Of a DNA stretch of 39,956 nucleotides, positions 6,957 through 23,418 are shown in pieces; positions within the stretch are counted from its first letter, which is position 1, and each line of letters starts with the position of its first letter. Source of the DNA: Methylococcaceae bacterium (lineage in GTDB: Bacteria; Pseudomonadota; Gammaproteobacteria; Methylococcales; Methylomonadaceae); the NCBI GenBank assembly GCA_947505105.1, contig CANNKG010000028.1:1-39956 (forward strand). Direction: 5' to 3'. A model generated the notes under the pieces. The model saw nothing but the letters and a program-made list of their open reading frames with translations. It ran no database searches and was not told the DNA's origin. The translations under genes were made by a program, and so were the position numbers.

Positions 6957-7946
6957 TTAACACCCCCAACGCAATGCCGCCGTATGCACTGGCGCATCCC
7001 AGAGTTCGAGCATTTCCGCATCAAGCAAGCTCAGCGTAATGGAGCAACCCGCCATGTCGAGCGAGGTGGTGTAATTGCCTACCAAGGATCGGCATAGCTT
7101 GACGCCGCGTTGTTCCCAATATTGAGCCGCCAACTGATAAATCAAATGCAATTCGAGGAGCGGTGTTCCACCGAAGCCGTTAATATGCAGCAAAGCAGTT
7201 TGACCAAGGGCGGGCTTGAGTTCATCCTGAATAATATCGGCAATATGCTCAACGATTTCACTCGCATGTGTTAAGGGCAGGGTCGAGCGACCGCGTTCGC
7301 CGTGAATGCCGACGCCCATTTCCATTTCGTTTTCGGCAAGCGTAAAGGTTGGTTTGCCGAGTGCCGGAACTGTGCAACTGGTGAGCGCGACGCCCATTGA
7401 GGCAGTATTTTGATTGACGCGCTCACCGAGCGCTTGGCAGGCCATTAAATCGTAGCCGCGCTCGGCTGCTGCGCCGACGATTTTTTCAACGATCAAAGTG
7501 CCGGCGACACCGCGTCTCCCGGTGCTGTGATCTTTGGCTAACGAAACGTCATCATTGACTAGCACCGTGGCATTTGGGCAGTCGAGCATTTCGGCGGCGA
7601 TTTCAAAGTTCATCACGTCGCCAGCATAATTTTTAACGATAAACAACACGCCGCCACCGCTTTCAACGGTTTGCGCAGCAGTCAACATTTGATCGGGTGT
7701 AGGTGAGGTGAAAATCTGGCCGGGGCAAGCAGCATCGAGCATTCCAGTCCCGACGAAACCGCAGTGGAGCGGTTCATGGCCTGAGCCGCCGCCGGAAATC
7801 AGCGCGACTTTACCGCTCGGGGTCGGCTTGACGCGGCTGATAATGTGAGGATCGGCGTTGTAGTTGACAATATCGGCATGCGCTTTGGCGAAGCCTTGTA
7901 AACTTTCTTCAAGCAGGCTATCGATGTTATTTATGAATTTTTTCAT
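6957..7946 (-). CDS. dhaK: dihydroxyacetone kinase substrate-binding subunit DhaK
   Basis: The 329-aa length is normal for DhaK. Motifs seen: GGGSGHEP (52-59, with His57), KNYAGD (105-110, with Asp110), and GIHGERG (213-219), in which His215 would form the hemiaminal with dihydroxyacetone. It works with DhaL to make dihydroxyacetone phosphate; related kinases also act on erythrulose or glyceraldehyde-type substrates, so the substrate is inferred. The gene is monocistronic with a GAGGA ribosome-binding site, and is separated from dhaL by rhlE and two membrane-protein genes. In many bacteria the two are adjacent. Confidence 0.9.
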   Translation of the reverse strand: MKKFINNIDSLLEESLQGFAKAHADIVNYNADPHIISRVKPTPSGKVALISGGGSGHEPLHCGFVGTGMLDAACPGQIFTSPTPDQMLTAAQTVESGGGVLFIVKNYAGDVMNFEIAAEMLDCPNATVLVNDDVSLAKDHSTGRRGVAGTLIVEKIVGAAAERGYDLMACQALGERVNQNTASMGVALTSCTVPALGKPTFTLAENEMEMGVGIHGERGRSTLPLTHASEIVEHIADIIQDELKPALGQTALLHINGFGGTPLLELHLIYQLAAQYWEQRGVKLCRSLVGNYTTSLDMAGCSITLSLLDAEMLELWDAPVHTAALRWGC

Positions 7947-8279: not shown

Positions 8280-10199
8280 ATGATGGATGAAACCATAGAC
8301 AACTTTTATTTTAAACAGAATTTTTCGGCGGAATGCCGTTTGCTGGATGAACTGCGTGTTGCCTTGACTACCGACAGCGACCCCGTTTTTACCCTTCCTC
8401 AAAATATTCAGTCACTATTCGATCCAGCCTATTCGCAGCTTTACATCACGCTATTTCAACGTGGCTTAAAGCCGTTGCGCTGGGGTGCCCGCAAAGCTGA
8501 TTTGGCAGAAACCTTGCGGCGGGTAGTTTTTAAGCTTAAATCATTGGCTGATTTTGAGTTATTTGAAGTCGCTGATGCTAGTCAATGTCGGATCATGTTT
8601 GAAATGGTGATCGGGGAACGGGAGTGTGCGATCCGAAATCTAACCGGGCATGCGTTTACCAAAAACCGCTTTGAGCCAGGCATTACTGGTTTTAAATACA
8701 CCTATAAAGATACGACTCGCTATTTTATGCCGACCGATGCAGTTGTCCAAAGCATCATGAGCGTTGCGCAATTGTTGAATTTTCTGGCCAAAAAAACCGG
8801 GCTTGCAAAACGAACCGTGAGTATTACCGAACGTGGCAATTTGATGCGCCATGAACCGATCAAATACAAATTTATCAAGAGTATCGCGTTTATTTCGTTT
8901 CAGGAACGGGTATTACCCTTGTATCGCGGCTACCCCGTTCCAGTAACCGCCGATAAAGAAACCATTCTGGAGAGTACGCTGAAAAGTGTTGACTGGCTGG
9001 TGCGTAACATGAACGAAGATGGCAGTTTTCTGTATTTTTATGACGGCTGTCTCGATACCGTCGTGGATTTTGATCATCCCAAAATGATCGATCCTCTGTA
9101 TAACAATATTCTGCGGCATAGCGGCGGAACCATAACGCTGATCAGAGGCTATGAATTAAGCCAAAATGACGTTTATTTGCAGGCGGCCAAAAAATCGCTG
9201 GGTTTTCTGATTTCGACGATTAGGGAGCATGAGTATCAAGGACAATATGCCTGCTATCCGTTCGACAATAAAAAATCTAAACTCGGCGGGGCAGGAATCG
9301 GCTTGGTAGCGATGATGCATTATTATCGCCATACCGGCGATGAAAGCTATCGCAAATATCTTGACGGCTTGGTGAGACATATCTTGTCGCGCGTTGATGC
9401 CGACGGCGAAATGATTGGCTACTACCTTCATCCTAAATTTAATGATGGTCAACCCTTGATCGACCCTCCCGACGAGATCAAAAAACAGTTGTTTTCATTT
9501 TATTACCCGGGCGAAGCGCTGCTTGGTCTCGTCTTGTATTACCAGCATATTAAAGATATCGATCCGGACTTACGCACCGAAATCCTCGACAAGAGTCAAC
9601 GCGCGCTGGATTTTCTGGTTGACATCCGGCCTATCAAATATCGTGAATTATTTTTGGCCTTGCCCGCCGATGCCTGGCTGATGCAGGCAATTGAAGAATG
9701 GGTCAAGATAGAGGGTTTTCGCAAACAAAGTTATATCGATTTTGTATTCATTGACGCCCAAACCATGATTAACCAAATGTACACCGAGGCTAACGTCGAG
9801 TATTTTGACTATTATGGTGGCTTTTACTATGTCTATGGCGATCATGTTTATCATGACGCTTCACGTTGTGAAGGCTTGATTGCCGCCTACCATCTGGCAA
9901 TTTTTCTGGGCGATCAAAATCGGGCGCAAGCGATTATGGAGGCCATGCTGATTTCGGCAAAAGGCTTGATGTATACCCGCCATACCGAGGAATCGACTTA
10001 TGCCCATAAATATCCCGAAAAAAGTATTAACAGCTTTCGCTTTAAATTAACTCGGCAATGGGTCAGAGTTGATTCGGTCCAGCATGCCGGCTGTTTTCTG
10101 GCTAGATTGTACGGGGTTTGGCCGGAACACCCCAGGCCATTACTCGACGACACCAAATTTTCGCTCGAAAAATTGACGTCATTGAACGCTCTTAGCTAA
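8280..10199 (+). CDS. alpha/alpha-toroid protein of unknown function, first gene of the operon
   Basis: A 639-aa protein without signal peptide, so predicted cytoplasmic. Residues 1 to about 205 form an unrecognised domain. From about 228 onward there is a series of amphipathic helix pairs of the kind found in (alpha/alpha)6-7 barrels: SVDWLVRNMNEDGSF, GGTITLIRGYEL, GIGLVAMMHYYRHTGDE, YYPGEALLGLVLYYQ, and near the end ASRCEGLIAAYHLA and DSVQHAGCFLARLYG. Such folds occur in glycosidases, lyases, epimerases and cyclases. I cannot choose one; no catalytic pair is obvious, though Asp, Glu and His residues cluster in the loops. An alternative ATG lies 3 nt downstream. Next gene begins 19 nt after. 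Confidence 0.7.
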   Translation: MMDETIDNFYFKQNFSAECRLLDELRVALTTDSDPVFTLPQNIQSLFDPAYSQLYITLFQRGLKPLRWGARKADLAETLRRVVFKLKSLADFELFEVADASQCRIMFEMVIGERECAIRNLTGHAFTKNRFEPGITGFKYTYKDTTRYFMPTDAVVQSIMSVAQLLNFLAKKTGLAKRTVSITERGNLMRHEPIKYKFIKSIAFISFQERVLPLYRGYPVPVTADKETILESTLKSVDWLVRNMNEDGSFLYFYDGCLDTVVDFDHPKMIDPLYNNILRHSGGTITLIRGYELSQNDVYLQAAKKSLGFLISTIREHEYQGQYACYPFDNKKSKLGGAGIGLVAMMHYYRHTGDESYRKYLDGLVRHILSRVDADGEMIGYYLHPKFNDGQPLIDPPDEIKKQLFSFYYPGEALLGLVLYYQHIKDIDPDLRTEILDKSQRALDFLVDIRPIKYRELFLALPADAWLMQAIEEWVKIEGFRKQSYIDFVFIDAQTMINQMYTEANVEYFDYYGGFYYVYGDHVYHDASRCEGLIAAYHLAIFLGDQNRAQAIMEAMLISAKGLMYTRHTEESTYAHKYPEKSINSFRFKLTRQWVRVDSVQHAGCFLARLYGVWPEHPRPLLDDTKFSLEKLTSLNALS

Positions 10200-10218
10200 C
10201 TGATTGAGTAAACATAAT

Positions 10219-11418
10219 ATGAAGTTTCGCTTGATATTCAAGATTATTCTACTGCTTAGCGTTTGCTTGCCCGGACTCCTTGCAGCAAAGGATTATACCG
10301 ATGCGCTAAAATTTATCGGTAATCCCTACCTTAATCGTTATGCCACACCAGAACAGGCTTATGCGAGAAATATCTGGAATATGCAAGTGTTTGATCATAA
10401 AATTTTTCTGGCAGCGGGTAATAGTAGTAACCGAGGTCCGGCAAGTAACGCAGGTCCCGTGCCGATAATGACGCTGGACCCTGCTACCGATCAATTTGCC
10501 GAAGAGGGACAGGTAAATGATGAACAAATCGGCAGTTTTGTAATATTGAACAAGCAACTCACCATCCCGGGACATGATCCACGTGAGGATTGGTCGGCCG
10601 GCAATTATTATCAACGCTTGGAAAAGGGGTTTTGGCTCAAGACGCGCAATATTCCGAATGCCTTGCATAATTACGCCATGGTCGAACATGGCGGGATATG
10701 GTTTGCCGGCCTGGGATTAAATGATGGCGGAGCGATTGTGGCCTCTTATGATCAGGGTAAAACCTGGAAAACCAGCCTGCAAACGTCGGCCCGGGTCTAT
10801 AATTTTTTTCAGGCGGACAAGAAACTTTATGCTGTCAATAGTCTAAAGGTTGAAGACGGCGGGGTTTTTATTTTTGAACATCATGATGATCAAGGGTTTG
10901 TGGCGCGTGGCGATTTGACGCCGAAAGTCATGTTTCCGGAAACGGAGCTTATCTCTAAAAAGAAGCTCAAAATTATTCGGGCACAGAGCTTTAAAAATCA
11001 GCTGATTTATATTGGCGCTTATGCTCATAATGATCATCAAGATCTGCCGTTTGGCGTCTATTTTGCCGAATCACTAAGCTCTGGAAAATTAAACATAAAA
11101 AAGGTGACGCTTCCTGAGACTAGCATTCCGTGGGATATTTTGCAGGATGCTCAACAGCTATTTATTCTGGCCAGCGCCGACGATATTTATCACCCACCAA
11201 TTACCAATTACGTGTTTCGGGCGTCTTTATCCAAAGTACCGGAATTCAGCACTCATGTGCAGTTTTCCGCCGAGAGCTTTGCACGCTCGTTTGAATGGGT
11301 GAATCAAACTTTTTATTTTGGTTTGGGAGCTGAAATTGCCAATTCGACGCGCTGGAACGTTTCCGAATTGAGCAGTCATGCCGGTGATATTTTAAAGCTG
11401 AAGCCCGTAATTCAATAA
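10219..11418 (+). CDS. exported beta-propeller-like protein
   Basis: The 399-aa product starts with a clear Sec signal peptide (MKFRLIFKIILLLSVCLPG, cleavage probably after LLA near residue 22). I chose ATG 10219 because a TTG start 15 nt upstream would only add five residues before this signal. The mature part is rich in short beta strands with repeated aromatic and Gly turns, including an Asp-box-like S-x-D-x-G-x-T-W (SYDQGKTW), typical of sialidase-like and other propeller folds. It is the only clearly exported protein in the operon. No catalytic site is recognised. It could bind or act on the pathway product in the periplasm. Confidence 0.7.
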   Translation: MKFRLIFKIILLLSVCLPGLLAAKDYTDALKFIGNPYLNRYATPEQAYARNIWNMQVFDHKIFLAAGNSSNRGPASNAGPVPIMTLDPATDQFAEEGQVNDEQIGSFVILNKQLTIPGHDPREDWSAGNYYQRLEKGFWLKTRNIPNALHNYAMVEHGGIWFAGLGLNDGGAIVASYDQGKTWKTSLQTSARVYNFFQADKKLYAVNSLKVEDGGVFIFEHHDDQGFVARGDLTPKVMFPETELISKKKLKIIRAQSFKNQLIYIGAYAHNDHQDLPFGVYFAESLSSGKLNIKKVTLPETSIPWDILQDAQQLFILASADDIYHPPITNYVFRASLSKVPEFSTHVQFSAESFARSFEWVNQTFYFGLGAEIANSTRWNVSELSSHAGDILKLKPVIQ

Positions 11419-11450
11419 TGCGTTAATTTTTACAATCTAAGGTAATCGAT

Positions 11451-14400
11451 ATGTCCAGTATGGAATTTTTGAAACAATTCGATAAAGAACAACTGTTCCG
11501 CTTTTTTGTAGATGGCCGGTTTCAAAAGAAATACGCGGGCTGGGTGGGCTATGAGGCCGGTGAGCGCGGTTCCGTACAAGCATTATTGAACGGTTTTGCC
11601 TTTATGCTCGATAATTTCGATTTATCGCAGGGGCTTCGCGCGACCTATTTGTTGGAACTGCATAAAGTCTGCATGATGAGTATCGAAACGCAGAACATTA
11701 AGAGTTCGCCAGGCGATCTGCGGTTTTTGAACGCCGGCATGCCGTTTTTTTCAAAAACCACTACTCTGGAAAATCTGCACGAAATTCTCGCCATGCGCAA
11801 AGATGATGGAACCGCGGTTTTCAACAACAAACAATTCGGCAAAACCGCTAATGAACTCGATGCCGAAACCATTTATCAATATATTCAAAAAGAAGGCAAA
11901 ATCAATTATCGCAATTGGTATCCGGTACTGGATGTCAAAACGCAGCACGCACTGGAAAAAAAAGCCTCGCTGCATGAGTTTTATCAGGCGAAACATCATG
12001 TGCAGATGTTGTTTGTGGATAAGGTTGAAGAGATTGTCGCACGCTACAATTGCAGCATGCAGGAGGCTAACTCCGATGATCAACGCTTACGCAGTATTGC
12101 CTTGGTAGTTAGAGAGCTAGAGTTGTTACACCCGTTTCCGGATGGCAATTGCCGAACCTTTGCCTGCGTATTGTTGGCCCAAATGTTGTTGTATTACGGG
12201 TTTTATCCGGCCATTTTGAGCAACCCCAATCTCGACGGCGAATATTCACTCGACCAATGGATTGCCGAGATCAAAAGCGGTATGGAATGTACCAAGGTGC
12301 TGTTGGCGACCCCTGAAGCTCGGCTTTATGATTATTCGATTCTGGATGCCAAGCCTGAAGATCGGACGACATTTTTGAGCATGGCCAAGGGACTGATCGA
12401 AAAAATCGACAGTTTTAAGGAAATCTATCTAACCCCACAGCGCCTGCTGCGTTATACAGGTGGACAATGGTTAACGGACTGCGATCCGTTTTTAACCTTT
12501 ACGGGGGTCGGCACTTACAACACTTATAGCGCGGGTAATCTTTACTTTGTTTTGCAAATTGATGATTGGCTGAACGAAAAACTTGAGGTCAGCACCGAGC
12601 TTATTAAAATTCTCCAAAAAGGCGTTAAAGCGGTGGTCTTAGACCGGCCCGAATATGCCAAAAGCTTGAATATTCCGGTGTTGCTCGTCGACAATGCCTT
12701 TGCGGCCTTCAAGCTGGCGGCTATCCAAGTCCGTCAGGAACTTGACTGCTACACCATTCTGGTCACCGGCACCGAAGGCAAGACCGGCGCGAAGGTGCAA
12801 TTGCATCACTTATTGAAACATCAAGCGCGCACCCATGCGGTTATCAACAGCGCCAATACCGAAATTCCCGTGTTGCGCTCGCTGATTAATTTGGGTGTCG
12901 GCGATCAAATCGAAATCAACGAGGTGTCAGTCGGCTCCGATGAAGATTATCGGGTCGAACGGACCAAGATGGTCAATCCGAATATTTGTTTGTTTACCAA
13001 TATCGGCCCGAATCACATGGATATGCACAAGACCATGGAGAATTTGCTTCGGGCTAAATCTTCAGTCGTCGAAGGCTTACGTGACGGCGGCGTCTGCATC
13101 GTCAATGCGGCTAATGAATATTATGCAGGACTCGTCGGTGCGATTCGCGAACGTAGGCCGGAAGTTACGATGTTCACCTATGGTACCGATCCACAAAACC
13201 ATGCCTATCTTGAAAGCGCCGCCATTAATCAACAACGCTTGGGCTGGGATGTAGTTGCGGTGATTGAAGGTGATCGTCTAGAATATTTTTTGCCCTTGTG
13301 TCAACAACATGCCCCACTGATGAGCGTTGGTATTTTATTGACCATCAAAAAAGCCGGTTACGACATTCATCAGGCCGCCCAGCATTATGTTGATTTGCAG
13401 CCGTTTGAAACCATGGGCCGCCTGCTGAATATTCACAAGAATGGGGGCGAAGTATTGTTTTATGATCAGAGTCGGCGCGGCGGCATTCAGGGCATGCGCT
13501 CGGCCTTTAACGATCTTAAGAACTTTAAAGTGACCGGTAAAATGGTCGCCTTGGTGGGTGGCGTTTCGGTTAAAAAAGATAGTGACTGGACTCAAGAAGT
13601 GCATCGACAATTGGCGGAGTTGATCAATGACAGCCAAATCGACCGACTCTATACCACCGGCAATTACATGGAATATGTGCATCGCCATTTGCAGAACAAA
13701 GCGCGTCTGGTGCGTCATGTCGATGATATTGATGAATTAGCCGACGCCTTGATGACTGAAATTCAGCCCGGTGATTTATTGTTTATTATCGGCAGCGCCT
13801 ATTTATATTTGGGCCGGGTATCGGACAAACTGCTGAGTTACAAAACAGTGACGAACAAACCTAAAAGACTGGCGGAGGACAAATTCGATCGGAGTATCGA
13901 GCAATACGCATTGTCTGCGGATGATCTCCTGCAATATCGGGTGCTGTTAGTTTTTGAAGCGATTCAAAGTGGCGTTCAAGTGGCTACCGCCTGCGCCCGT
14001 TACGCCATTAAAGAAGCGGATTATTTACAATGGCATGCGCATTTTGCCAATTATCGAGAATTTAGAACCACCCTGCTAACGCATTTTTTTACAGCGCTCG
14101 ACAAATTAGTCGAAACCGAACACATTAAAAACATTAATAAACCGATCGGCGATAGCGGTTATAAGAGTTATGTACAATCTCAGGACTATTGCCATCGCTG
14201 GTTTAACAATCATGATCAAATTAAAAATGAACCGGTTAAACAATTATTCGGCAATTTCTATGATTTTGGTCATGCGCGTTACCTGCTGCATATTGAGGTC
14301 GCTACCAAAAACCTCCACATCGGTTTGGTTGAATATCGCCAGCAAGACGATCATTATGAAATCGTAAAAATATCCGAAGCAGGACTGGTCGAGCTTCAGC

Positions 14401-14588
14401 AAGAATTTCCTTTTCCTGTCACGCTAAAACTTCAGCAGCGCACCTGGGGTTTGGGCTGGGCAAGTGTCGATTGCGGTAATTTTATCGATCCTTGTGAGGC
14501 TTCTACCTATTATGCCTTGACCGATTTGAGCAACAGTCCCTTGTATAAAACCATCATCCAGCCTATGGTGATGGCATTGAATCACTGA
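11451..14588 (+). CDS. Fic/Doc domain fused to a MurF-like amide ligase
   Basis: A 1045-aa fusion. Residues about 60-300 hold a Fic/Doc fold with the core motif HPFPDGNCRTFA (227-238): the catalytic His and D-G-N-x-R are kept, but the second Gly is Cys and the last Arg is Ala, closer to Doc (D-A-N-K-R-T-A) than to classic AMPylating Fic. Residues about 325-435 resemble the MurE/MurF N-terminal domain. The central ATPase has VTGTEGKTG (438-446, Lys444), FTNIGPNHMDMH and a probable carbamylated Lys536; the C-terminal Mur domain has YDQSRRGGI. Residues about 820-1045 are unrecognised. Inference: ATP-driven amide formation with an added nucleotide- or phospho-transfer domain. TAAGG ribosome-binding site; 16 nt to the next gene. 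Confidence 0.85.
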   Translation: MSSMEFLKQFDKEQLFRFFVDGRFQKKYAGWVGYEAGERGSVQALLNGFAFMLDNFDLSQGLRATYLLELHKVCMMSIETQNIKSSPGDLRFLNAGMPFFSKTTTLENLHEILAMRKDDGTAVFNNKQFGKTANELDAETIYQYIQKEGKINYRNWYPVLDVKTQHALEKKASLHEFYQAKHHVQMLFVDKVEEIVARYNCSMQEANSDDQRLRSIALVVRELELLHPFPDGNCRTFACVLLAQMLLYYGFYPAILSNPNLDGEYSLDQWIAEIKSGMECTKVLLATPEARLYDYSILDAKPEDRTTFLSMAKGLIEKIDSFKEIYLTPQRLLRYTGGQWLTDCDPFLTFTGVGTYNTYSAGNLYFVLQIDDWLNEKLEVSTELIKILQKGVKAVVLDRPEYAKSLNIPVLLVDNAFAAFKLAAIQVRQELDCYTILVTGTEGKTGAKVQLHHLLKHQARTHAVINSANTEIPVLRSLINLGVGDQIEINEVSVGSDEDYRVERTKMVNPNICLFTNIGPNHMDMHKTMENLLRAKSSVVEGLRDGGVCIVNAANEYYAGLVGAIRERRPEVTMFTYGTDPQNHAYLESAAINQQRLGWDVVAVIEGDRLEYFLPLCQQHAPLMSVGILLTIKKAGYDIHQAAQHYVDLQPFETMGRLLNIHKNGGEVLFYDQSRRGGIQGMRSAFNDLKNFKVTGKMVALVGGVSVKKDSDWTQEVHRQLAELINDSQIDRLYTTGNYMEYVHRHLQNKARLVRHVDDIDELADALMTEIQPGDLLFIIGSAYLYLGRVSDKLLSYKTVTNKPKRLAEDKFDRSIEQYALSADDLLQYRVLLVFEAIQSGVQVATACARYAIKEADYLQWHAHFANYREFRTTLLTHFFTALDKLVETEHIKNINKPIGDSGYKSYVQSQDYCHRWFNNHDQIKNEPVKQLFGNFYDFGHARYLLHIEVATKNLHIGLVEYRQQDDHYEIVKISEAGLVELQQEFPFPVTLKLQQRTWGLGWASVDCGNFIDPCEASTYYALTDLSNSPLYKTIIQPMVMALNH

Positions 14589-14604
14589 TAAATGGGATAC
14601 CAGA

Positions 14605-15681
14605 ATGACTAACGCAGCAGAACAATATTTATTTACGCCGGGGCCGGTGAAGATTCCGACCGACATACTGGCCTTGGGGGCGATGCAAACACCTTATTTT
14701 CGTAATCAGGCATTTTCTGAAGTGGTTTTCGAATGCGAAAAGAATTTATTGGCGCTCACCAATGCGCCGGAAGGCAGTCGAGCAATCTTTATCACCGCCT
14801 CCGGTACGGCCGCGATGGAAGCAGTGGTGCTGAATCTCTTGGATACTCAAGAACAGTGCATTGTGATTAATGGCGGCACCTTCGGGCAGCGCTTTGTCGA
14901 TATTTGTCATTTACATCAACGACCTATTTTTAACGTCAAGGTCAGTAATACCAATCTGGCAAATACGGATAGTCTGGAAAACTTTCAAACCGCGAGCGCT
15001 TTGCTGGTGAACGGACATGAGACCAGTATTGGCTTACTGTATGACTTGCATGCCTTGGGGAATTTTTGCTTAACACATGGCATGTTGCACATCGTTGATG
15101 CGATCAGTATGTTTGTCACCGATGAACTCGATATGCAAAAGTGTGCGATTGATGCCCTGATTCTATCTTCACATAAAGGTTTGGCGTTGCCGCCTGGCCT
15201 TGCAATGGTCATTTTATCGCCCAAGGCGCTTAGAAGAATCAAACACGCCCAAACTTACTATCTGAATTTTAAAAACCATCTGGAAGATGGCTTACGTGGG
15301 CAAACACCATTTACCCCGGCAGTGACGATTATTTTGCAATTACAATTACGTCTTGCGCAACTTATGGCACAAGGCTTAGCACACCAGCAACAGCGCGCGA
15401 AAGCGATTGCGGAATATTTTCGGGCGGCGATCAAACCCTTACCGCTCAAGACTTATTCGGCCTATATGCCGAATGCCTTGACTGCGTTGAGTCCAACCGA
15501 TTCGCGCAAGGCCTCCGAAATTGTAGCTGAGCTGGAGCATCAATACCATGTGGTCGTCGCACCGAATGGCGGCGAATTGAAAGACACCTTATTCAGAGTG
15601 GCACACATGGGCGATATCGACGAGGCCTATACCGATGTATTGATTAACGCCTTGTTTAATTACTATCAGGTGACACGATGA
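14605..15681 (+). CDS. class V PLP-dependent aminotransferase (AGXT / AEP-transaminase-like)
   Basis: The 358-aa protein has the class V fold-type I pattern: FTPGPVKIP at the N-terminus, ASGTAAMEAVV, NGHETSIG, VDAISMF, SSHKGLALPPG with the PLP Lys at 191, and FTPAV later. The motif around Lys191 is more like alanine/serine-glyoxylate aminotransferases than PhnW (which has S-A-N-K-C-I-Q-G-V-P-G). 2-Aminoethylphosphonate-pyruvate transaminase is nevertheless in the same family and fits the following gene. It overlaps that gene by 4 nt (ATGA), so the two are translationally coupled and probably act on the same metabolite. Confidence 0.85.
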   Translation: MTNAAEQYLFTPGPVKIPTDILALGAMQTPYFRNQAFSEVVFECEKNLLALTNAPEGSRAIFITASGTAAMEAVVLNLLDTQEQCIVINGGTFGQRFVDICHLHQRPIFNVKVSNTNLANTDSLENFQTASALLVNGHETSIGLLYDLHALGNFCLTHGMLHIVDAISMFVTDELDMQKCAIDALILSSHKGLALPPGLAMVILSPKALRRIKHAQTYYLNFKNHLEDGLRGQTPFTPAVTIILQLQLRLAQLMAQGLAHQQQRAKAIAEYFRAAIKPLPLKTYSAYMPNALTALSPTDSRKASEIVAELEHQYHVVVAPNGGELKDTLFRVAHMGDIDEAYTDVLINALFNYYQVTR

Positions 15682-16394
15682 AAGTGTTAATTATGGCCGC
15701 AGGCGTCGGTAGTCGAATTAGTCGGCATTTGCAAAATCAACCTAAATGCTGCGTCGATGTCGACGGCAAGCCACTGATTAAATATACCTTTGAACTACTT
15801 AATCGAAAAGGCATTACCAATATCGCGATCGTGACCGGCTATCAGGAAAAATACATCCATCAGGCCCTCGAAGGCTTCCAATATGCACGTTTTTTCAATC
15901 CTTTCTATCGTGTTGCAAATTCGATTTCATCGGCTTGGTTTGCGCGGGATTTTCTAGTCGGTGACGACTTATTGATCATGAACGGCGATGTCTACATGGA
16001 AGATGCCATTCTCGACGCCTTGCTGCACGATCCCAATTCACCGGTACTCTTGAGCGATAGTACCCGCATTAATGACGCAGATTATCGCTTCCAATGGCAA
16101 GGCAATCTGCTGAAAAAATATGGCAAACAACTCAGTAATGAAGAAACCACCGGTGAATATGTCGGGATCGGTAAATTAAGTCAGCAGGATGTGATGCTGT
16201 TTAGACAGCAGGTGATCGATGCGGTTTCCTCCGAGGATTATGGCTGCTGGTGGGAAGAGGTAATTTATCGTAGCGTGGAAACGGGGCGCGAGGTCTATGT
16301 GCATGACATCGCTGGAAAATTCTGGGCCGAAGTCGATTACATCGAAGATTATGAACGCATCAAAGCCTTTGTCAAAAGACTTAAGCAAGCCTAG
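15678..16394 (+). CDS. LicC/PntC-like nucleotidyltransferase (probable cytidylyltransferase)
   Basis: A 238-aa Rossmann-like NTP transferase. Motifs: MAAGVGSR (6-13), KCCVDVDGKPLI (23-34) with Lys23, NGDV (102-105, metal-binding Asp104), GEYVGIGKLS (159-168), WWEEV (191-195), and FWAEVDYIEDYER (215-227) with Asp220. This set is characteristic of phosphocholine and 2-aminoethylphosphonate cytidylyltransferases (LicC, PntC) and related sugar-phosphate enzymes. The product would be an NDP-activated, most likely CDP-activated, small amino compound. It begins inside the aminotransferase stop codon and ends 5 nt before the next gene. No choline kinase or PEP mutase is in the window. Confidence 0.82.
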   Translation: MKVLIMAAGVGSRISRHLQNQPKCCVDVDGKPLIKYTFELLNRKGITNIAIVTGYQEKYIHQALEGFQYARFFNPFYRVANSISSAWFARDFLVGDDLLIMNGDVYMEDAILDALLHDPNSPVLLSDSTRINDADYRFQWQGNLLKKYGKQLSNEETTGEYVGIGKLSQQDVMLFRQQVIDAVSSEDYGCWWEEVIYRSVETGREVYVHDIAGKFWAEVDYIEDYERIKAFVKRLKQA

Positions 16395-16399
16395 CGCTC

Positions 16400-19237
16400 A
16401 TGAAGTTAACGCAACAAAACATCCTCCACCAAGGCACACTACTGGTCAAAGACGATGCCACAGATTCTTATGAGCGTGTCTTGATCTACCAGCACTTTCG
16501 GTTTTTTTTCTCGCTACGCGAAACGCAGTATTCTCCAGCCGATCTAAGCGATTCTGACCAGGATGGCGTTCCCGATTATGTTATTCACCTCTTGCATAAA
16601 GTGGTTGTCGCCTATGCAATTTTAGTCGATGGACTTGGATTTCAGGATTTGTTCGCAGGCTTATGGCTTGATGCGCAAAAGGTGCATTTTCTCGATATTT
16701 ATCTTCAAGACATTGCGGTAGAACATGGCATTGCCTCTGCATCGATTTATGATTTTAATCCCGAAGTCGTGCAGGGCTCACTTTATGTGGGCAATTCGTT
16801 GCGCTTGATTTTCCATCGTAACTTGCATGCAGGAACCGCGACGCCGATTCACGAACTGGTGCATCTGTTTCAGTTTTCCTATGTGCCTTTCAATAACATC
16901 TGGTTCATGGAAGGCGTGGCGCGCTGGGGGCAGCGTTTCATGCAAACCAATCCAGGCAAAACCGAACCATTGCCCGCCACTCAAGAACAACTCGAAGCCC
17001 TGCTTAAAAAATGGCATGATGCCGAACATTTTTGGAATCGTTTGGTGGAACTGAGTTCCCCGAACAGCGTCCTTGAAGTTCCGGAATCGCTTCGGGACTG
17101 TGGCGTTCCAATCCAGGCGAACTGGAGCGATGGTCGTTTCATGCGTTTTTTTTTGGAACGATGCACAAAAAATGTCGCGCTACTGAGTACCGAACAGCGC
17201 ACGCGTGATCTTCCCTCGTATGGTCAATGGAATCGTGAGGAAAAACGCTCGGCCAACAACAACAAATATATTCTCAAAAGCATCCTCGAAGCACTTGTCT
17301 TGTGCCAAGCGCCAGCGCATCCTGAACTCGATGCCTTTATCGATCTCGTAACACCGCTGATCCGAATAAATACCGACAATTTCGCCGATCCTGCCGTGCA
17401 AAAATTCATGTGCGTCTTACAAAAATACGCCTTGGGAAAAGTCACGGTCAGCCCCAAAGCCGTTCTATATAGCGATTATTTTGATTTGGCTACCGGCACC
17501 CTCTCGATACAAACCGTCGATTTTTCAGGCCTGAAACTGAGCAACGCCGAATTGGATACCTTCAAGGTTGTCCGGCACCTTATCGGCTCGTTGAAATTCG
17601 AAGATAATCCGGATTTGACCTCTCTAGCGGGCCTTGAAAATCTCCAGGCAATTGAAGGCAGTTTGACGATCAACGCTACCGGAATTCGCCATCTTAACGG
17701 TCTGACCCTTTTAGAGCGGGTCAAAGGACATATCGAAATTCAGAAGAATAGCCAATTACGGTCCATCAATGGATTCACCGCCTTGGAGGTTATCGATACC
17801 CAAGTCACGCTTGCCAATAATGAAGCATTGACCATTATCAATGGCTTCAACAGTTTGCGTCAGATCAAAAAAGGTGCCCTGACGATTGAAAATTGCCCGC
17901 AACTGATCAACATCAATGGCTTCAATAGTCTGGCGCAAGTGAAACACTTACTGCTGAATCGCTTGGGGATTACTCAAGCGAATTTTTTAAGTCACTTGAT
18001 CAGACAACAACCTGAGTTCAAAGGCCATATCAAAATCACCAGCTGTCGCTTGCAGAATCTGGATTGTTTTACACCGTTGACCGGTGTCAACTCGTTTTAT
18101 TTATTTGACAACAAACTCAAAAACTTGCGGGGTCTGGAAAACCTTCGCCATGTAGAGGCGAGTTTTTCACTATCGACTAATCAATTAAACGATATTTCGC
18201 AATTGGCAAGGCTTGAAAGCGTCGACGGCATGCTTGCGCTTGCGCATAACCAATTAAGTTCCCTGCACGGCCTGGAACAGTTAAGGCAATTGAAAACAGT
18301 GAGTTGGAACGGCCAAAATCGCACCCTGGTTCTGAATGATAATCCGCATTTACAGGACATTGCCGCGCTAGCGAATCTTCAGACCCAGGATAATTATCTG
18401 ATCATTCTGGCGGATGATTACCGGCAGTATCAGCACAAACCCGACTCGCAAGCCGATTTTCATAAGAACATCATCGAATGGCATGATTTGACGGCCAAAC
18501 GCATCATTCCCAGCTATCGATTCGTTAACAAGCCGGTTCATGACTACGCTAATTTTCGCAAGACCACCCATAATCGCTTATTGAAATATCTGCTCGACTT
18601 CGAAACGCCCGCCGATACGCTAATTCTTTCCTTTACCGGCTTCAACGGCAATCTCGGCGGAGTGTTTTATAACCGCTTTCCCTGGATCGTCGACGGCATC
18701 AATACCCATAAAATTTTTATGAACGATACTCAGAATATCTGGTATCACAAGGGGATTCCGCCAATCACCAAATCCATGAATGAAACCATTGAACTGATTC
18801 GTCAGCTGATGGATCAGTATTCCTATCGAAAAATTCTCTGTATCGGCACTTCGATGGGCGGCTATATGTCGCTGTTGATTGGTTATCTGTTGGAAGCGAC
18901 GGATGTCATTGCGTTTGCGCCGCAGATTTTTCTGGACCCAGCTAATCGAAGCCATTACGGCGATACCCGCTGGACGGGTGCGTTAAAATCCATGCCCACT
19001 CAAGTCAATCCCAAATATCTGGATCTGGGCCTGTTGTATCAAGATCGAAGCAATCTGAAGACGCAAATCCAGATTCATTATGGTCGGCATCTGGAACTCG
19101 ACCACCAACATATCGAACACTTGGGGGAATACCCAAATGTTCAGTTGTTTCCTTACGATGTCGAAGATCATTACATCCCAAAATATCTCGATAATTTGGG
19201 TTTGCTCCACAGTATCATTGCCGACACCATACGTTAA
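16400..19237 (+). CDS. metallopeptidase-like / leucine-rich / alpha-beta hydrolase fusion
   Basis: A 945-aa three-part protein. The N-terminal part has a Ca-binding D-S-D-Q-D-G-V-P-D (51-59) and a gluzincin site HELVH (151-155) with Glu171 in W-F-M-E-G-V-A-R-W, resembling the MXAN_6640-type putative metalloproteases. Residues about 355-700 are leucine-rich, receptor-L-like repeats (SLAGLENLQAIEG, SINGFTALEVI, IINGFNSLRQI). The C-terminal part from about 733 is an alpha/beta hydrolase with nucleophile elbow GTSMGG (Ser818) and a late His924 (EDHYIP). There is no obvious signal peptide, although the first domain is of a type usually exported. Function unknown; possible maturation, trimming or cyclising enzyme. 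4 nt to the next gene. Confidence 0.8.
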   Translation: MKLTQQNILHQGTLLVKDDATDSYERVLIYQHFRFFFSLRETQYSPADLSDSDQDGVPDYVIHLLHKVVVAYAILVDGLGFQDLFAGLWLDAQKVHFLDIYLQDIAVEHGIASASIYDFNPEVVQGSLYVGNSLRLIFHRNLHAGTATPIHELVHLFQFSYVPFNNIWFMEGVARWGQRFMQTNPGKTEPLPATQEQLEALLKKWHDAEHFWNRLVELSSPNSVLEVPESLRDCGVPIQANWSDGRFMRFFLERCTKNVALLSTEQRTRDLPSYGQWNREEKRSANNNKYILKSILEALVLCQAPAHPELDAFIDLVTPLIRINTDNFADPAVQKFMCVLQKYALGKVTVSPKAVLYSDYFDLATGTLSIQTVDFSGLKLSNAELDTFKVVRHLIGSLKFEDNPDLTSLAGLENLQAIEGSLTINATGIRHLNGLTLLERVKGHIEIQKNSQLRSINGFTALEVIDTQVTLANNEALTIINGFNSLRQIKKGALTIENCPQLININGFNSLAQVKHLLLNRLGITQANFLSHLIRQQPEFKGHIKITSCRLQNLDCFTPLTGVNSFYLFDNKLKNLRGLENLRHVEASFSLSTNQLNDISQLARLESVDGMLALAHNQLSSLHGLEQLRQLKTVSWNGQNRTLVLNDNPHLQDIAALANLQTQDNYLIILADDYRQYQHKPDSQADFHKNIIEWHDLTAKRIIPSYRFVNKPVHDYANFRKTTHNRLLKYLLDFETPADTLILSFTGFNGNLGGVFYNRFPWIVDGINTHKIFMNDTQNIWYHKGIPPITKSMNETIELIRQLMDQYSYRKILCIGTSMGGYMSLLIGYLLEATDVIAFAPQIFLDPANRSHYGDTRWTGALKSMPTQVNPKYLDLGLLYQDRSNLKTQIQIHYGRHLELDHQHIEHLGEYPNVQLFPYDVEDHYIPKYLDNLGLLHSIIADTIR

Positions 19238-19241
19238 TCCA

Positions 19242-21812
19242 ATGAAAATTAAGGTTCTATTCGAAAATAACTGGCGCGCAGCATTGAAAAAATGCACTTG
19301 GTTGGACGCGCATCATCTGTACTTCGATGACGTTGAAAAAATTATTAGTTATTGTCACGAACATCAAATTCAAATCATTTTTGGCAACAATTATCGCGCA
19401 CAAAATTTTCTGGAGCTCAATCAAGCGTGTTTGCGACAGGCAAATCTGCAATTTCTGGTCAATAGCCGCTACGTACTCGATCATTTCGTCGATAAGCGCA
19501 AATTTGATCTGTTCATGCGCGAGCAGGGCTTTGCTGACTATGTACCGCGAAACTATGAGACGGTATGCGACATTGAATATCCGTGCATCATCAAACCGAA
19601 ATCCGGCGGCGTGGGTAAAGGCGTGCGCATTGCTTTTGACGAGGCCGATTTAGGTGATATCGATACTAATAAATATTTGGTTTCCGAGTTTCTCGAAGGC
19701 GATGAATATGCCAGCAGTATTTTTTATCACCGAGGAGAAATCATTAGCCATTTTTCCTATGTTAAGAGCGTGCAACAAAGCCATTACGTCTTGCAACAAG
19801 TCGACAAGCGCGATTTACATGAAGCGGCCTGCCCTACCGCGTTTTTGGAGCTATTTCTGGCAATCCTGCAGGCGGCCAACCCGAGTCAAGAAACCTGTCA
19901 GTGCAGCATCAATTTCAAAATTATCAACGGTATTCCTAAAATTTTCGAAATCAACTGCCGCATCGGTTATACCTTGGCTGGCTATCCCGACGACTTCAAA
20001 GTGTTTTTCGATCACTATTTGGCTGCGTTGCATGAAACTCAATCAGCTTCGGAAAACGATAATTTCTTTTCGCTCGCCGAACTTGCTGAGATCACTAAAG
20101 GCCGGTGGGAAAATTTACACGCGGATTTTCAGATCAATCAGGTCGAATACATTTATAAATACCTGCAAGCAGGTGATCTTTATGTCGTGCGCCATGAGGG
20201 ATGGCCTAAAAGTGTCGGCTACACTCCGAATGAGCATCTAGCACCCAAGGTTTTGAACAAACCCGTCGCCGCGCTGATGGTTAACGAAACCTTCGCTCAG
20301 GTGCTCAAAAAACCGATGCTGAGGGTCGAAAATACCTACCGGGCGCTTGAAATGCTGGCATCGCGAACCAGTCAGACTTCCAAAGCCAGACGAATCCTGA
20401 TTGTCGGCAGCTATGGCAAAACCGGCCTCAAAAACAGTTTGTATCATATTTTGCACGACAAACTCGCCATCCATGCCCGTTTAACCAGCGCCAATTATTC
20501 GGCCTCGACCTATTGCAGTCTAGCCTCCTTAAAAAAATCGCATCAACTGTATATTGTCGAGTTACCGATCGCCAATAAAACCAAGATGCTTAAACGCGCA
20601 GCACTAATTGCACCTGATATTTGCGTTCTGACTGGCATTGGCCATGATCATATCGAACGCTTCAAAACCATCGACCGAATCATCGAGCATAAGGTTTCTG
20701 TCGCCCAAGGTTTGGCTCCGGGAGGGAAGTTTATCATTCCTCGGGAAAGTCTTTATCTTGACCAAATTCTGCACCACTTACAAAATTACCCGCATATCGA
20801 GATTCTGAGTTTCGGTTATCAAGCCGATTGCGCCGCGCAAATTCTGTTTCAGCAGTATCGCAATTTCGGCTGGGACGTTATTGCCCGAATATCGACTCAA
20901 TTGCTCTGCTATCGCCTGCCGTTTCCCGAAACTCACGCGCCGTTATCCTCGCTGCCAGTGTTGTTGACCGCTTATCTGCTAGGATTCGAGCTTACCGAGC
21001 TCGTCGAACAGCTGGGAGAGTGTGAGAATTTTAAGAGCAGCGGCCGATTGCAAAGGTTTGACTACCAAGGAAAACAATTCTATCTTTACGACCAGAGTTA
21101 TCGGGGCGGTATAGAGAGCTATCAGTCTTTTTTCGAAACCTTAGCCTATTTCAAGCCGCAGGGTAAGGGCAAAAAAATCGTTTTGAGTTCTGAATTCGTC
21201 GATTGCAAGGATAATGAACAAGCCTTGATCGATCATACGCTATTTCAAAATCTGATTCGACAAGCCAAGATCGATGAATTCTATAGCGTCGAAAATTTCT
21301 GTGAACATCTACAGGTCTTACCCGATAAACATTTCTGGAAAAATCACGCCAAAGATTTCGATACCTTGAAAGATCAAATCGTCAATAATCTCGAACAAGA
21401 TGACATACTCTGTATCAAAGGAATTTTCGAAAGCCAGTTACCCAAATTCGTCGCCTATCTACATGCCTTACCGGGTTTAACCCAGTTAAACTATAGAACG
21501 GGGTTGCCTAATCGTTATCGGGCACTTGCTGATTTGACGCATATTACTTATGCACAAATCGAGGGCTTGTTGAACGGTCGCCTTGATTCAAACCGAATAA
21601 AGGCGCTCTATCTAAATACAAGCACTGCCGATGCTTTAGCTGGCCAATGGTTGATCGGCGACTGCCAGGAGGTCTGCTGTTTATTTTTATTACGTCTTAA
21701 ACCGCTACTCCACCTGGAATTTGTTGATTGTTCAAGCGCTGAGCTGAGTGGTGGGACCTTGCACTATATTGAGCAAAAGTTAATGCTGTTTAATCACCTC
21801 AATGAGGAATGA
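19242..21812 (+). CDS. ATP-grasp ligase fused to a MurF-like amide ligase
   Basis: An 856-aa fusion. I chose ATG 19242, 4 nt after the previous stop; an upstream in-frame ATG would overlap the hydrolase gene by 158 nt. Residues about 1-265 are ATP-grasp: CIIKPKSGGVGKGV (115-128), EFLEGDEY (149-156), and FEINCRIG (235-242) with metal-binding Glu/Asn. Residues about 280-375 look like a MurE/F N-terminal domain, then the ATPase VGSYGKTG (388-395, Lys393), TGIGHDH, probable carbamylated Lys484, and a C-domain YDQSYRGGI. The last 100 residues are unrecognised. The ATP-grasp plus Mur order recalls cyanophycin synthetase, but the sequence motifs differ, so a different amino-acid polymer or peptide is inferred. 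Confidence 0.85.
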   Translation: MKIKVLFENNWRAALKKCTWLDAHHLYFDDVEKIISYCHEHQIQIIFGNNYRAQNFLELNQACLRQANLQFLVNSRYVLDHFVDKRKFDLFMREQGFADYVPRNYETVCDIEYPCIIKPKSGGVGKGVRIAFDEADLGDIDTNKYLVSEFLEGDEYASSIFYHRGEIISHFSYVKSVQQSHYVLQQVDKRDLHEAACPTAFLELFLAILQAANPSQETCQCSINFKIINGIPKIFEINCRIGYTLAGYPDDFKVFFDHYLAALHETQSASENDNFFSLAELAEITKGRWENLHADFQINQVEYIYKYLQAGDLYVVRHEGWPKSVGYTPNEHLAPKVLNKPVAALMVNETFAQVLKKPMLRVENTYRALEMLASRTSQTSKARRILIVGSYGKTGLKNSLYHILHDKLAIHARLTSANYSASTYCSLASLKKSHQLYIVELPIANKTKMLKRAALIAPDICVLTGIGHDHIERFKTIDRIIEHKVSVAQGLAPGGKFIIPRESLYLDQILHHLQNYPHIEILSFGYQADCAAQILFQQYRNFGWDVIARISTQLLCYRLPFPETHAPLSSLPVLLTAYLLGFELTELVEQLGECENFKSSGRLQRFDYQGKQFYLYDQSYRGGIESYQSFFETLAYFKPQGKGKKIVLSSEFVDCKDNEQALIDHTLFQNLIRQAKIDEFYSVENFCEHLQVLPDKHFWKNHAKDFDTLKDQIVNNLEQDDILCIKGIFESQLPKFVAYLHALPGLTQLNYRTGLPNRYRALADLTHITYAQIEGLLNGRLDSNRIKALYLNTSTADALAGQWLIGDCQEVCCLFLLRLKPLLHLEFVDCSSAELSGGTLHYIEQKLMLFNHLNEE

Positions 21813-21816
21813 CACC

Positions 21817-23418
21817 ATGAATAGATTACATAGTTTTTCTCAAGCGCCGATTTGGGAATTACAAAAAAACTATTATCAACACTTAGGTATCGAAACTTGG
21901 AGCAATGCGCTCGTGCCCTTCAATGCCACAAGTAACGCTTTTATTGCCCATCATTATGCGGCAGTGATTCGTGCCTACATCATTGATCTATACGCCAAGT
22001 ATGGCTCAGCAAGCCTCTTTCCACTCAATATTCTAGAATTGGGCGTTGGTCACGGACGCTTCAGTTTCATGTTATTGCAGGCGCTGGAAAATATACTCGC
22101 CGACCTCGATTTCGCTGAAGGTCATAATTTTTATCGCTATATCATGACCGATGTCGTCGAAGCCAATATTGAAGTCTGGCGCACCCATCCTCGACTTAAA
22201 CCCTTTATCGAAGCCGGTAAGCTGGATTTTGCATTTTTTGACGCTCAACATCCCAATGACGCGCGGTTGAGTATTATGCAACAGTCCTGCGCCGAATATC
22301 TTCAACATCGGCCCTTAGTGATCGTCGCTAATTTCATGCTTGATGTCCTGCCCTACGATTTGTTTTATGTCGAGCATGAAACTTTACATGCCTGTGAAGT
22401 CCGTTATGATTTGCCCGCCGACATTCCCTTGGATCAAAATCCGGAACAACTGATCAAAGCGTCCAGTTTCAATTATTACCGGCATAAGATCGTTATGCCT
22501 TATTATGCCGATGACACGCTCGATGACATTCTCCTGGACTATAGTCAACATTTGACGCAGACAGTTTTTCAATTCCCGATCGTCGCCATCGAGTTGTACC
22601 GCTTTTTTGCTGACCTGACTCCTGATCAATTATGGTTGGTCAGCGAGGAAGCGGATACCGAATGGGCGCAACTCGAAGGTAGAAATGATGTCGGCCTTAA
22701 AAAAGCCGGATCGTTTACCAGTCGGGTCAATCTACATGCCTTGTTTGAATATGCCAAGCGTCATGGCGCCAAGTGTCTCTCACCGGATTGGTCTGATGCC
22801 CGCTTTGACAGTTTTGCAATCACAACAGGTCTCGAATATTCTCCACAGGCCCACATTTGGGCAGCAATCAGGCATTATCTGTTTGATTTTGGCCCGAAGG
22901 ATTATTTCCGCCTCGTGGTATCGCTTTACAAAAATGAGGTGGAATTAGATACCAATGGCTGTATTTCACTGTTGGAATTAGGCTATGCCGATCCTTACCT
23001 GATTTTCAGACTGCGTAAAATGCTGATCAAAGCCTGTATTAATCTAACCGGTTTTAAACGCATAGCCTTTGAGCGAACCTTGATCCGAAGTTGGGAAAAT
23101 TACTACAATTTAGGTGAGGAGTTTGATTACGCTAACTTGTTAGCGACCCTACTATTCAAATTAGGCAATTATGAACAGGCCTTGATATTTTTCTCAAAAT
23201 CGTTGGCATTGAAAGGAAAATCTGCCGAAACTTTTTATCAAATGGGTAAATGCGCACAGTATCTTGAGGATTTACCGCTGACGGTGAAGTTCTATCAGCA
23301 GGCGCTCGCCCTCGCGCCCAATCATCATAAAGCGCAGCGACGTCTTGGCTTGCTGCATGGATTCGTTAATTCGGAAATACTTCAGGAGTTGCGTGACCAA
23401 TTTGTTATTAATGATTAA
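21817..23418 (+). CDS. SAM-dependent methyltransferase-like protein with C-terminal TPR
   Basis: A 533-aa protein, last gene of the operon. I prefer ATG 21817 since AGGA lies 8 nt upstream; ATG 21802 is also in frame. The N-terminal half carries a class I SAM-binding motif, LELGVGHGRF (73-82), then ILADLDF and MTDVVEANIEVW, and a VIVANFMLDVLPYD segment like motif IV of protein and small-molecule methyltransferases. The C-terminal 110 residues form two or three TPR units (KLGNYEQALIFFSKSLAL, YLEDLPLTVKFYQQALAL). It probably methylates the pathway product or a protein carrier, with the TPR holding the partner. No terminator is seen after it. Confidence 0.75.
   Translation: MNRLHSFSQAPIWELQKNYYQHLGIETWSNALVPFNATSNAFIAHHYAAVIRAYIIDLYAKYGSASLFPLNILELGVGHGRFSFMLLQALENILADLDFAEGHNFYRYIMTDVVEANIEVWRTHPRLKPFIEAGKLDFAFFDAQHPNDARLSIMQQSCAEYLQHRPLVIVANFMLDVLPYDLFYVEHETLHACEVRYDLPADIPLDQNPEQLIKASSFNYYRHKIVMPYYADDTLDDILLDYSQHLTQTVFQFPIVAIELYRFFADLTPDQLWLVSEEADTEWAQLEGRNDVGLKKAGSFTSRVNLHALFEYAKRHGAKCLSPDWSDARFDSFAITTGLEYSPQAHIWAAIRHYLFDFGPKDYFRLVVSLYKNEVELDTNGCISLLELGYADPYLIFRLRKMLIKACINLTGFKRIAFERTLIRSWENYYNLGEEFDYANLLATLLFKLGNYEQALIFFSKSLALKGKSAETFYQMGKCAQYLEDLPLTVKFYQQALALAPNHHKAQRRLGLLHGFVNSEILQELRDQFVIND

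Follow-up and report, generated by a model that had tools for sequence, protein, structure and literature searches.

We analysed a 39,956-base stretch of DNA from a Methylococcaceae bacterium (contig CANNKG010000028.1; hereafter, the window), and in particular an operon of eight co-directional genes that extends from 8280 to 23418 on the plus strand. Two of these genes encode ligases of the Mur type, one (11451-14588) fused to a Fic domain and the other (19242-21812) to an ATP-grasp domain, and a further gene encodes a protein with a predicted barrel fold, which we call the barrel protein. We propose, with moderate confidence, that the operon serves as a toolkit that modifies a secreted adhesin with a long alternating (Asp-Ser/Thr)n stalk. 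The sequences themselves show the domains of the encoded proteins, the kinship of the two Mur ligases, the recurrence of the gene set in other bacteria and the association of the barrel with adhesins that bear (Asp-x)n repeats. The toolkit is apparently widespread across many bacteria and undescribed.

The eight genes are as follows, with E-values of database matches in parentheses.

8280..10199, plus strand: barrel protein; an N-terminal part without a match, then an (alpha/alpha)6 barrel (residues ~223-618)
10204..11418, plus strand: conserved protein with no assigned function; hydrophobic, signal-like start by eye
11451..14588, plus strand: Fic-Mur; AnkX-like Fic domain (residues ~4-331), MurF-like ligase (~322-800) and an unassigned C-terminal domain
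14605..15681, plus strand: class V aminotransferase, similar to PhnW/aminoethylphosphonate transaminase (TIGR03301, 8.2e-46, below cut-off; Aminotran_5, 8e-18)
15678..16394, plus strand: LicC/PntC-like nucleotidyltransferase (PDB LicC 1jyk, 1.2e-15; PntC-AEPT 6pd1, 1.7e-8)
16400..19237, plus strand: HExxH metalloprotease-like N-terminus, leucine-rich repeats and alpha/beta-hydrolase-like C-terminus (NF045524, 9.7e-9; Recep_L_domain, 1.7e-15; UPF0227, 3.4e-4)
19242..21812, plus strand: ATP-grasp-Mur; ATP-grasp domain (residues ~1-263), second MurF-like ligase (~273-745) and a C-terminal tail
21802..23418, plus strand: S-adenosylmethionine (SAM) methyltransferase-like and TPR protein (Methyltransf_28, 9.5e-4, below cut-off; TPR_1, 2.5e-10)

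Association of the barrel and the operon with (Asp-x)n adhesins

We use the term stalk for (Asp-x)n, where x is Ala, Ser or Thr, and the term run for eight or more such units (DA, DS or DT). Used as a query against plasmid records, the Agrobacterium barrel matched 54 of them; we read 14 of these, chosen for diversity, together with a Thioclava record that came from a Mur search. Runs lie near the barrel in 12 of the 15 records read, namely those of Staphylococcus haemolyticus, S. aureus, S. epidermidis, Sulfitobacter, A. pusense, A. tumefaciens (two records), Klebsiella, Listeria, E. gilvus, Nitratireductor and Rhizobium BG4. The barrel gene adjoins the adhesin gene or stands a few genes off, with intervening genes that are often or mostly secretion genes, and this holds for unrelated bacteria, both Gram-positives and Gram-negatives. 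The repeats are DA/DS in S. aureus, S. haemolyticus and Rhizobium BG4, DS in S. epidermidis and Klebsiella, DA in Listeria, E. gilvus, Nitratireductor, the three Agrobacterium plasmids and Sulfitobacter, and DT in three genomes of the window's family. In a small control, which covered 101,726 bases at 30 Mur loci from four cluster genomes and included the Murs of the operons, we saw no run.

The association is also seen among 151 relatives, seven of which have the barrel. Our repeat query, a single (DT)n protein applied at 1e-10 that possibly misses genomes with only Asp-Ala repeats, matched six of these seven genomes versus 3 of the 144 others (Fisher p 3.9e-8). Counted by genus, there are repeat matches in 4/4 with the barrel versus 2/43 others (p 8.4e-5). 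When the matched stretches were read, the six barrel genomes proved to hold real runs, and the three matched genomes that have no barrel (labelled G020, G117 and G149) had no D-A/S/T run of 8 units in those stretches. The window's own genome was missed at 1e-10, yet it has a DS/DT run in frame at the start of another contig, C36, so that all seven barrel genomes have repeats.

Similar neighbourhoods surround the operon itself. D-S/D-T runs occur in 8 of the 13 genomes with a Fic-Mur fusion (7 of the 12 that were reached through their loci, plus the window's own). In Methylobacter (G017), where the barrel is fused to Fic-Mur, this fusion comes immediately after the terminal part of a (DS)n RTX protein; in one Sulfurimonas locus (L018), the gene for a (DT)n protein comes after the nucleotidyltransferase gene; and in Arcobacter the N-terminus of a related adhesin ends the operon's contig. 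Type I secretion genes lie upstream in four Sulfurimonas loci, identified by Pfam in L014 and as BLAST kin in L015, L022 and L024. In Staphylococcus, an SdrD-type adhesin has as neighbours a Mur ligase gene and a barrel gene whose product is 39% identical to the barrel of G017. Fic-Mur is absent from three genomes of the window's family, each consisting of 1-2 contigs. In them, the gene of a barrel that shares 68-69% identity with that of the window is close to a (DT)n adhesin, to that adhesin's secretion genes and to a TPR gene, which Pfam identifies as a GT41 glycosyltransferase in the one that was tested. The proposed link to (Asp-x)n adhesins as substrate is well supported.

Some barrel loci have other arrangements. 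In Klebsiella aerogenes (L142, 11986-16138), the barrel is fused to a GT4 glycosyltransferase and is followed by an HExxH protein that by eye resembles the N-terminus of 16400-19237; in the vicinity are genes for type I secretion and, upstream of 'clumping factor' genes, DS runs. In Listeria monocytogenes (L143, 9689-13560), the barrel gene comes directly after that of an LPXTG protein with more than 130 Asp-Ala repeats, and no annotated ligase gene is nearby. In Acinetobacter baumannii (L141/L151), the barrel directly follows a 2031-residue type I secreted protein without a D-x repeat. The barrel may also act on other stalks.

Kinship of the two Mur modules

In a preliminary description of this DNA, the Mur parts of Fic-Mur and ATP-grasp-Mur were taken to be paralogues from one unusual branch of the Mur ligases, on the basis of shared motifs in the P-loop and the C-terminal domain, and a phylogeny was suggested as a check. 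The best profile for both modules is TIGR01143 (murF), with E-values of 1.2e-44 in Fic-Mur (residues 386-793) and 5.3e-39 in ATP-grasp-Mur (residues 336-737), where Pfam Mur_ligase_M also matches (2.7e-15). Their scores of 152.9 and 134.3 bits lie below the cut-off of 288.6, and the genome's own MurF scores 437. Since the genome has its own MurC, MurD, MurE, MurF, Mpl and FolC elsewhere, neither module in the operon is a housekeeping enzyme. The two modules are 28.5% identical over 491 residues (E 8e-52).

We built a tree of 46 rows, comprising 13 modules of the first type (as in Fic-Mur), six of the second type (as in ATP-grasp-Mur), two extra Arcobacter Murs and comparison ligases. The two types and the extra Arcobacter Murs form one clade (100/99), and the first-type modules (100/99) and the second-type modules (100/100) each form a clade of their own, which implies that the duplication predates the spread of the operon. 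The joint clade lies on the MurF side of the tree (99/97), separate from MurC/D/E and FolC as well as from the MurF of this genome, and near the Murs that accompany the barrel in Thioclava, Sulfitobacter, Agrobacterium and Nitratireductor, with a tentative branching order. The modules do not, then, fall into separate known families, and the proposed paralogy holds. It is important to consider that the second Mur of L015, which has an internal stop, and partial Arcobacter Mur frames were left out; that the staphylococcal Mur sits on a long branch (2.23) and is unsurely placed; and that the tree program warned of long branches meeting at Mpl. The tree has no true CphA or CapB row; TIGR02068, the profile of cyanophycin synthetase (CphA), matched 2 of 101 genomes at 1e-100, below its cut-off and in frames without a Mur P-loop, so no CphA row was available.

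The motifs agree with the tree. All 19 modules have a P-loop that ends in GK[T/S]G (GKTG in 12 and GKSG in one of the 13 first-type modules; 6/6 second-type modules). The C-domain motif YDQ[S/C]xRGG is present in 18 of the 19 (12 of the first type, the 13th having YDQSRRGAI, and all six of the second), and in none of 25 comparison ligases (0/20 MurC/D/E/F, Mpl and FolC; 0/5 barrel-associated Murs). In the window it reads YDQSYRGGI and YDQSRRGGI, at the place where MurF has a segment of the DDxYNANP type (DDTYNANP in the genome's own MurF). Both extra Arcobacter Murs have GKTG; one has YNQSRRGG, and the other lacks anything similar.

The ATP-grasp domain

The reading frame at 19242-21812 is real, and in its product an ATP-grasp domain precedes a MurF-like ligase in a single chain. 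The longest open reading frame found mechanically starts at 19080 (910 residues). We regard 19242 as the right start because the preceding gene stops at 19237 and an ATG stands at 19242; a homologue in the same genus (L010), which is 63% identical over 715 residues, starts at the matching residue.

The ATP-grasp domain matches NCBIfam PRK12767.1-1 (E 4.6e-13, residues 31-242, below cut-off). We found it in 10 loci, but it is fused to Mur in only two of them, the window and a relative from the same genus (G002). In seven loci (G017, L015, L018, L019, L020, L022 and L024) it forms the C-terminal end of the leucine-rich-repeat protein, and L023 encodes it in a gene of its own next to that of the Mur. 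With so few fusions (2/10 loci), a mechanism that alternates between two sites of one chain cannot be essential. This bears on the likeness to cyanophycin synthetase that the preliminary description saw in the order of the two domains, which the profiles do not bear out either: among the 34 profiles for ATP-grasp-Mur, TIGR02068 falls outside the best 25, and it matches Fic-Mur with an E-value of 6.1e-5 and 21 bits against a cut-off of 850. With such poor scores and so loose a fusion, we rejected a cyanophycin-like reading. The preliminary description also suggested that amides are formed at three or more sites in the pathway; this is reasonable for the window, although a second Mur was found in only 8 of 13 genomes.

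The C-terminal tail of ATP-grasp-Mur aligns to part of an LPG-synthase-like region of its relatives. The second Mur of Sulfurimonas L014 carries LPG_synthase_C (2.3e-11), as do two Arcobacter proteins, and L023 has a GNAT domain in its place. An AlphaFold2 model of ATP-grasp-Mur was poor (predicted local distance difference test, pLDDT, 51.9; predicted template modelling score 0.32) and was not used.

Spread of the operon

Scanning genome contigs with a single sequence as the query gave no match, and scanning them with a Fic-Mur alignment gave 12 loci among 207 pattern matches. These loci belong to Methylococcaceae, Methylobacter, Sulfurimonas (five loci), Arcobacter, Gallionellaceae, Alcaligenaceae, Geobacteraceae and an unplaced gammaproteobacterium. 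With the window, the operon is found in 13 genomes, G002 and G017 being among the 12 others. At 1e-30, the ligase is found in 3 of the 151 relatives, the window's own genome included. Fic is fused to Mur in all 13 loci, the aminotransferase is present in 12 and the nucleotidyltransferase in 11, counts in which L014 and L015 are cut by contig ends. Searching the whole genomes of G017, G155, G157, G159 and G162 with Fic-Mur (1e-6) returned only Fic-Mur, its C-terminal domain and MurF-type matches.

The protein at 10204-11418 has no Pfam and no NCBIfam match at E 1, and its homologues are present in other operon loci. The methyltransferase-TPR gene overlaps the ATP-grasp-Mur gene, and no kin of its product are among the best matches listed for a BLAST query in the 12 loci.

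Several copies of the operon contain additional domains. The C-terminal residues ~830-1043 of Fic-Mur have no family match, and they recur in the aminotransferase frame of Sulfurimonas L015, L022 and L024 and of G157; a related domain is fused to a radical SAM/SPASM protein within the L018 copy (13125-14621). The gammaproteobacterial operon L019 includes a class III aminotransferase (10871-12073), with a class V one further down the contig. Arcobacter contig C7 (L162, 17000-29240) has a second set, made up of one Fic frame, a pair of unfused Murs, of which one reads YNQSRRGG, a protein that is CapA-like by eye, and an adhesin N-terminus at the contig end.

The barrel protein

The AlphaFold2 model of the barrel protein (pLDDT 72.9) resembles, over residues 223-618, the GH76 structure 6shd (Z 28.6; 302 residues, root-mean-square deviation 2.6, 13% identity) and the sugar epimerase 3vw5 (Z 28.0). 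GH76 mannanases and sugar 2-epimerases are its best matches, in fold only and with no function implied. In Staphylococcus, Listeria and Klebsiella records the family is labelled 'hypothetical' or 'poly(glycerol-phosphate) alpha-glucosyltransferase'. Because the barrel is the most constant partner of the repeats and stands without a ligase in Listeria and E. gilvus, it is probably the first enzyme of the set, or else a partner that binds the stalk.

Repeat composition and partner enzymes

Asp is the invariant residue of the stalks, and x varies. In 13 records, x is at least 98% Ser/Thr, and these have Fic (8 genomes), GT41 (3), an SdgB-like protein (S. epidermidis) or the GT4-barrel fusion (Klebsiella). 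In 10 records, x is 60-100% Ala, and the fetched stretches have no match to Fic, GT41, SdgB-like or GT4 queries (tblastn, 1e-4). The Ala share is 60% in S. aureus, 74% in Rhizobium BG4, 77% in S. haemolyticus, 88% in E. gilvus and at least 98% in the other six. Seven of the 10 Ala records have ligases: Mur in six (two Agrobacterium, Sulfitobacter, Nitratireductor and two Staphylococcus) and, in A. tumefaciens Tul002, ATP-grasp domains fused to the barrel. The SdgB-like gene of S. epidermidis, which scores 764 bits against a cut-off of 800, adjoins the barrel gene and the DS adhesin. One genome (G146) has DA/DS repeats (65% Ala) and its barrel on another contig, and is in neither set. Counted by lineage, according to our own grouping, the split is 4 versus 5. 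It fits, and does not prove, a division of labour in which ligases would act on Asp, and Fic or glycosyltransferases on Ser/Thr.

The Tul002 protein, encoded on a plasmid (L148, 11980-16962), has 1660 residues and joins the barrel to ATP-grasp domains of the YheCD type, with two stretches of the RimK/GSH-synthetase type. Nearby is an adhesin with a BapA prefix and about 250 Asp-Ala repeats.

The Fic domain and a possible head group

The Fic domain is most similar to AnkX (PDB, 6.6e-22), which accounts for all four PDB sequences matched at E <= 0.01; it also matches NF043028 (6.7e-33, below cut-off). Its motif HPFPDGNCR is identical in three aligned copies and fits HxFx(D/E)xNxR, which we take to be the Fic consensus form. 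No ankyrin family follows the Fic domain in Pfam at E 1, which shows Mur domains there.

The nucleotidyltransferase is closest to LicC and then to PntC, and in our motif reading we noted N-G-D and C-W-W-E positions. At the pocket positions that we equated by reading alignments, it carries Asn and Glu, as against Asp/Asp in LicC and Glu/Glu in PntC of T. denticola. Aminoethylphosphonate is not supported for the window, and is probably not its head group, as the window's genome has no match to the phosphoenolpyruvate (PEP) mutase family PF13714. PF13714 is likewise without a match in G002, G017, G152, G153, G161 and G162 (7/13 Fic-Mur genomes, with the window's own), is over its cut-off in G155, G156, G158 and G160, and is below it in G157 and G159. 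As PF13714 also matches in E. coli, a match alone does not show PEP mutase. Upstream of the operon, at 6957-7946 and 3499-4134, are genes that by eye resemble dihydroxyacetone kinase subunits. Dihydroxyacetone phosphate would be a possible substrate of the operon's aminotransferase.

Proposed function and alternatives

From these observations we infer that this operon acts on the adhesin, and we infer as well which residues carry a modification, in what sequence the steps occur and what chemical groups are involved. Modification would take place in the cytoplasm, before export. The barrel protein would act on the Asp-rich stalk, or hold it, and the Mur modules and the ATP-grasp domain would attach amines, at the cost of ATP, to carboxylates in the stalk, be they those of Asp side chains or of groups previously linked to them. 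The LicC/PntC-like enzyme might make an amino compound linked to cytidine diphosphate (CDP) or monophosphate (CMP), with an amine supplied by the class V aminotransferase, and the phospho-group of this compound could then be placed on Ser/Thr hydroxyls by the AnkX-like Fic domain.

A stronger version is that every residue of the stalk is modified: Fic would put a zwitterionic phospho-amino group on each Ser/Thr, and the Mur and ATP-grasp enzymes would amidate each Asp, so that a polyanionic stalk would become a teichoic-acid-like brush before secretion. We consider this extended form rather unlikely. We know of no Mur ligase that acts on proteins, and, if the extended form is correct, these would be the first, in a decoration of protein polymers that spans several phyla.

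Several observations weigh against a toolkit for (Asp-x)n adhesins. No D-x run was found near the barrel in 3 of the 15 records (A. baumannii, 36.6 kb; Variovorax, 48 kb; Thioclava, 17.4 kb), nor in the 39,956 bases of the window, the species' repeat frame being on contig C36. Five of the 12 other Fic-Mur genomes have no repeat match, misses that may be assembly gaps, since several repeat frames end at contig ends. The barrel's fold, like that of sugar epimerases and glycosidases, suggests a sugar rather than Asp as its substrate. In Listeria, E. gilvus and Rhizobium BG4, barrels are near repeats with no ligase in the stretch; these cases, and the three genomes with a barrel and a glycosyltransferase and no Fic-Mur, imply that ligases are optional. 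Finally, the records compared for repeat composition are not independent, as all Fic cases come from one lineage and the three GT41 genomes from one genus, and the absence of transferases was judged within the fetched stretch only, using four queries.

An alternative that we regard as unlikely is that the Mur and ATP-grasp enzymes assemble a small peptide while it is attached to a soluble carrier linked to CDP or CMP, and that Fic transfers the finished group to Ser/Thr of the adhesin, in which case the ligases never touch the adhesin. MurC-F build a peptide on UDP-N-acetylmuramic acid (UDP-MurNAc), and a carrier would suit the position of the modules on the MurF side of the tree, the invariable fusion of Fic to Mur (13/13 loci) and the near-constant aminotransferase (12/13) and nucleotidyltransferase (11/13). 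However, the barrel-associated Murs of Agrobacterium, Sulfitobacter and Nitratireductor occur with Asp-Ala repeats, with no Fic in the stretch and no evident carrier.

It is quite improbable, in our view, that the operon makes a secondary metabolite, a capsule or a cyanophycin-like storage polymer and that the repeat adhesins are incidental. It is true that such pathways often include genes for ligases, aminotransferases and methyltransferases, and that domains are strongly shuffled between loci. On the other hand, none of the eight operon proteins is identified by Pfam as a polyketide or non-ribosomal synthetase, and the association of barrel and repeats (p 3.9e-8), with neighbourhoods shared between Gram-positives and Gram-negatives, is hard to reconcile with coincidence. 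That the modules are ordinary MurF paralogues that alter peptidoglycan, e.g., by adding another dipeptide at the stem end, is highly improbable: TIGR01143 is indeed their best profile, but they reach only about half its cut-off (134 and 153 bits versus 288.6), form a separate clade and have a changed C-domain motif in a genome with its own MurF.

If the operon is indeed a modification toolkit for stalked adhesins, Mur-type ligases would have been recruited from cell-wall synthesis to protein modification. This would explain why Asp occupies every second residue in some of the most repetitive adhesins, and it would give the barrel family a testable role. It also predicts that the genes next to an adhesin reveal the chemistry of its stalk: enzymes that modify hydroxyls would accompany Ser/Thr stalks, and amide ligases would be there for Asp.

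Comparison with known systems

The literature that we searched, which included few subscription papers, has nothing that links Mur ligases or Fic domains to such repeat adhesins. The closest known systems are as follows. The Mur modules are like MurF in their best profile, their P-loop and their side of the tree; they differ in scoring below the cut-off, in forming their own clade, in having YDQSxRGG for the DDxYNANP-type segment and in being fused to Fic or ATP-grasp. CphA has the same order of ATP-grasp and then Mur in one chain, as seen in the window and G002 only, but its profile is not among the best 25 for ATP-grasp-Mur and the fusion is found in 2/10 loci, a comparison made without a true CphA sequence.

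PntC of Treponema is fused to a class V aminotransferase (PMC6697681), and the window similarly pairs a LicC-like nucleotidyltransferase with such an enzyme; the differences are the lack of a PEP mutase match in the window's genome and, as we read the alignments, the residues at the pocket positions. AnkX uses CDP-choline to place phosphocholine on a Ser of Rab1 (PMC7228754). The window's Fic domain is similar to it over ~310 residues, with a LicC-like nucleotidyltransferase gene nearby; unlike AnkX, it is fused to a Mur ligase, is not an effector by its context and has no ankyrin match.

On the side of the substrate, BapA of Paracoccus denitrificans has 891 Asp-Ala repeats and is needed for biofilm formation; it runs at more than 300 kDa versus a calculated 212 kDa, and its authors leave post-translational modification open (PMC5588039). 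The accessible part of that paper differs from our proposal in naming no modifying enzyme for BapA.

Finally, SdgA and SdgB glycosylate the serine-aspartate repeat adhesins of staphylococci (PMC3794999). They add N-acetylglucosamine, whereas the window's operon has Mur and ATP-grasp amide ligases, Fic and the barrel, and Pfam matches of its eight proteins include no glycosyltransferase family; moreover, relatives of the operon also go with Asp-Ala repeats, which have no hydroxyl. The likeness is that dedicated enzymes covalently modify a long Ser-Asp stalk, and a Ser-Asp repeat frame is present in the window's genome as well, on contig C36.

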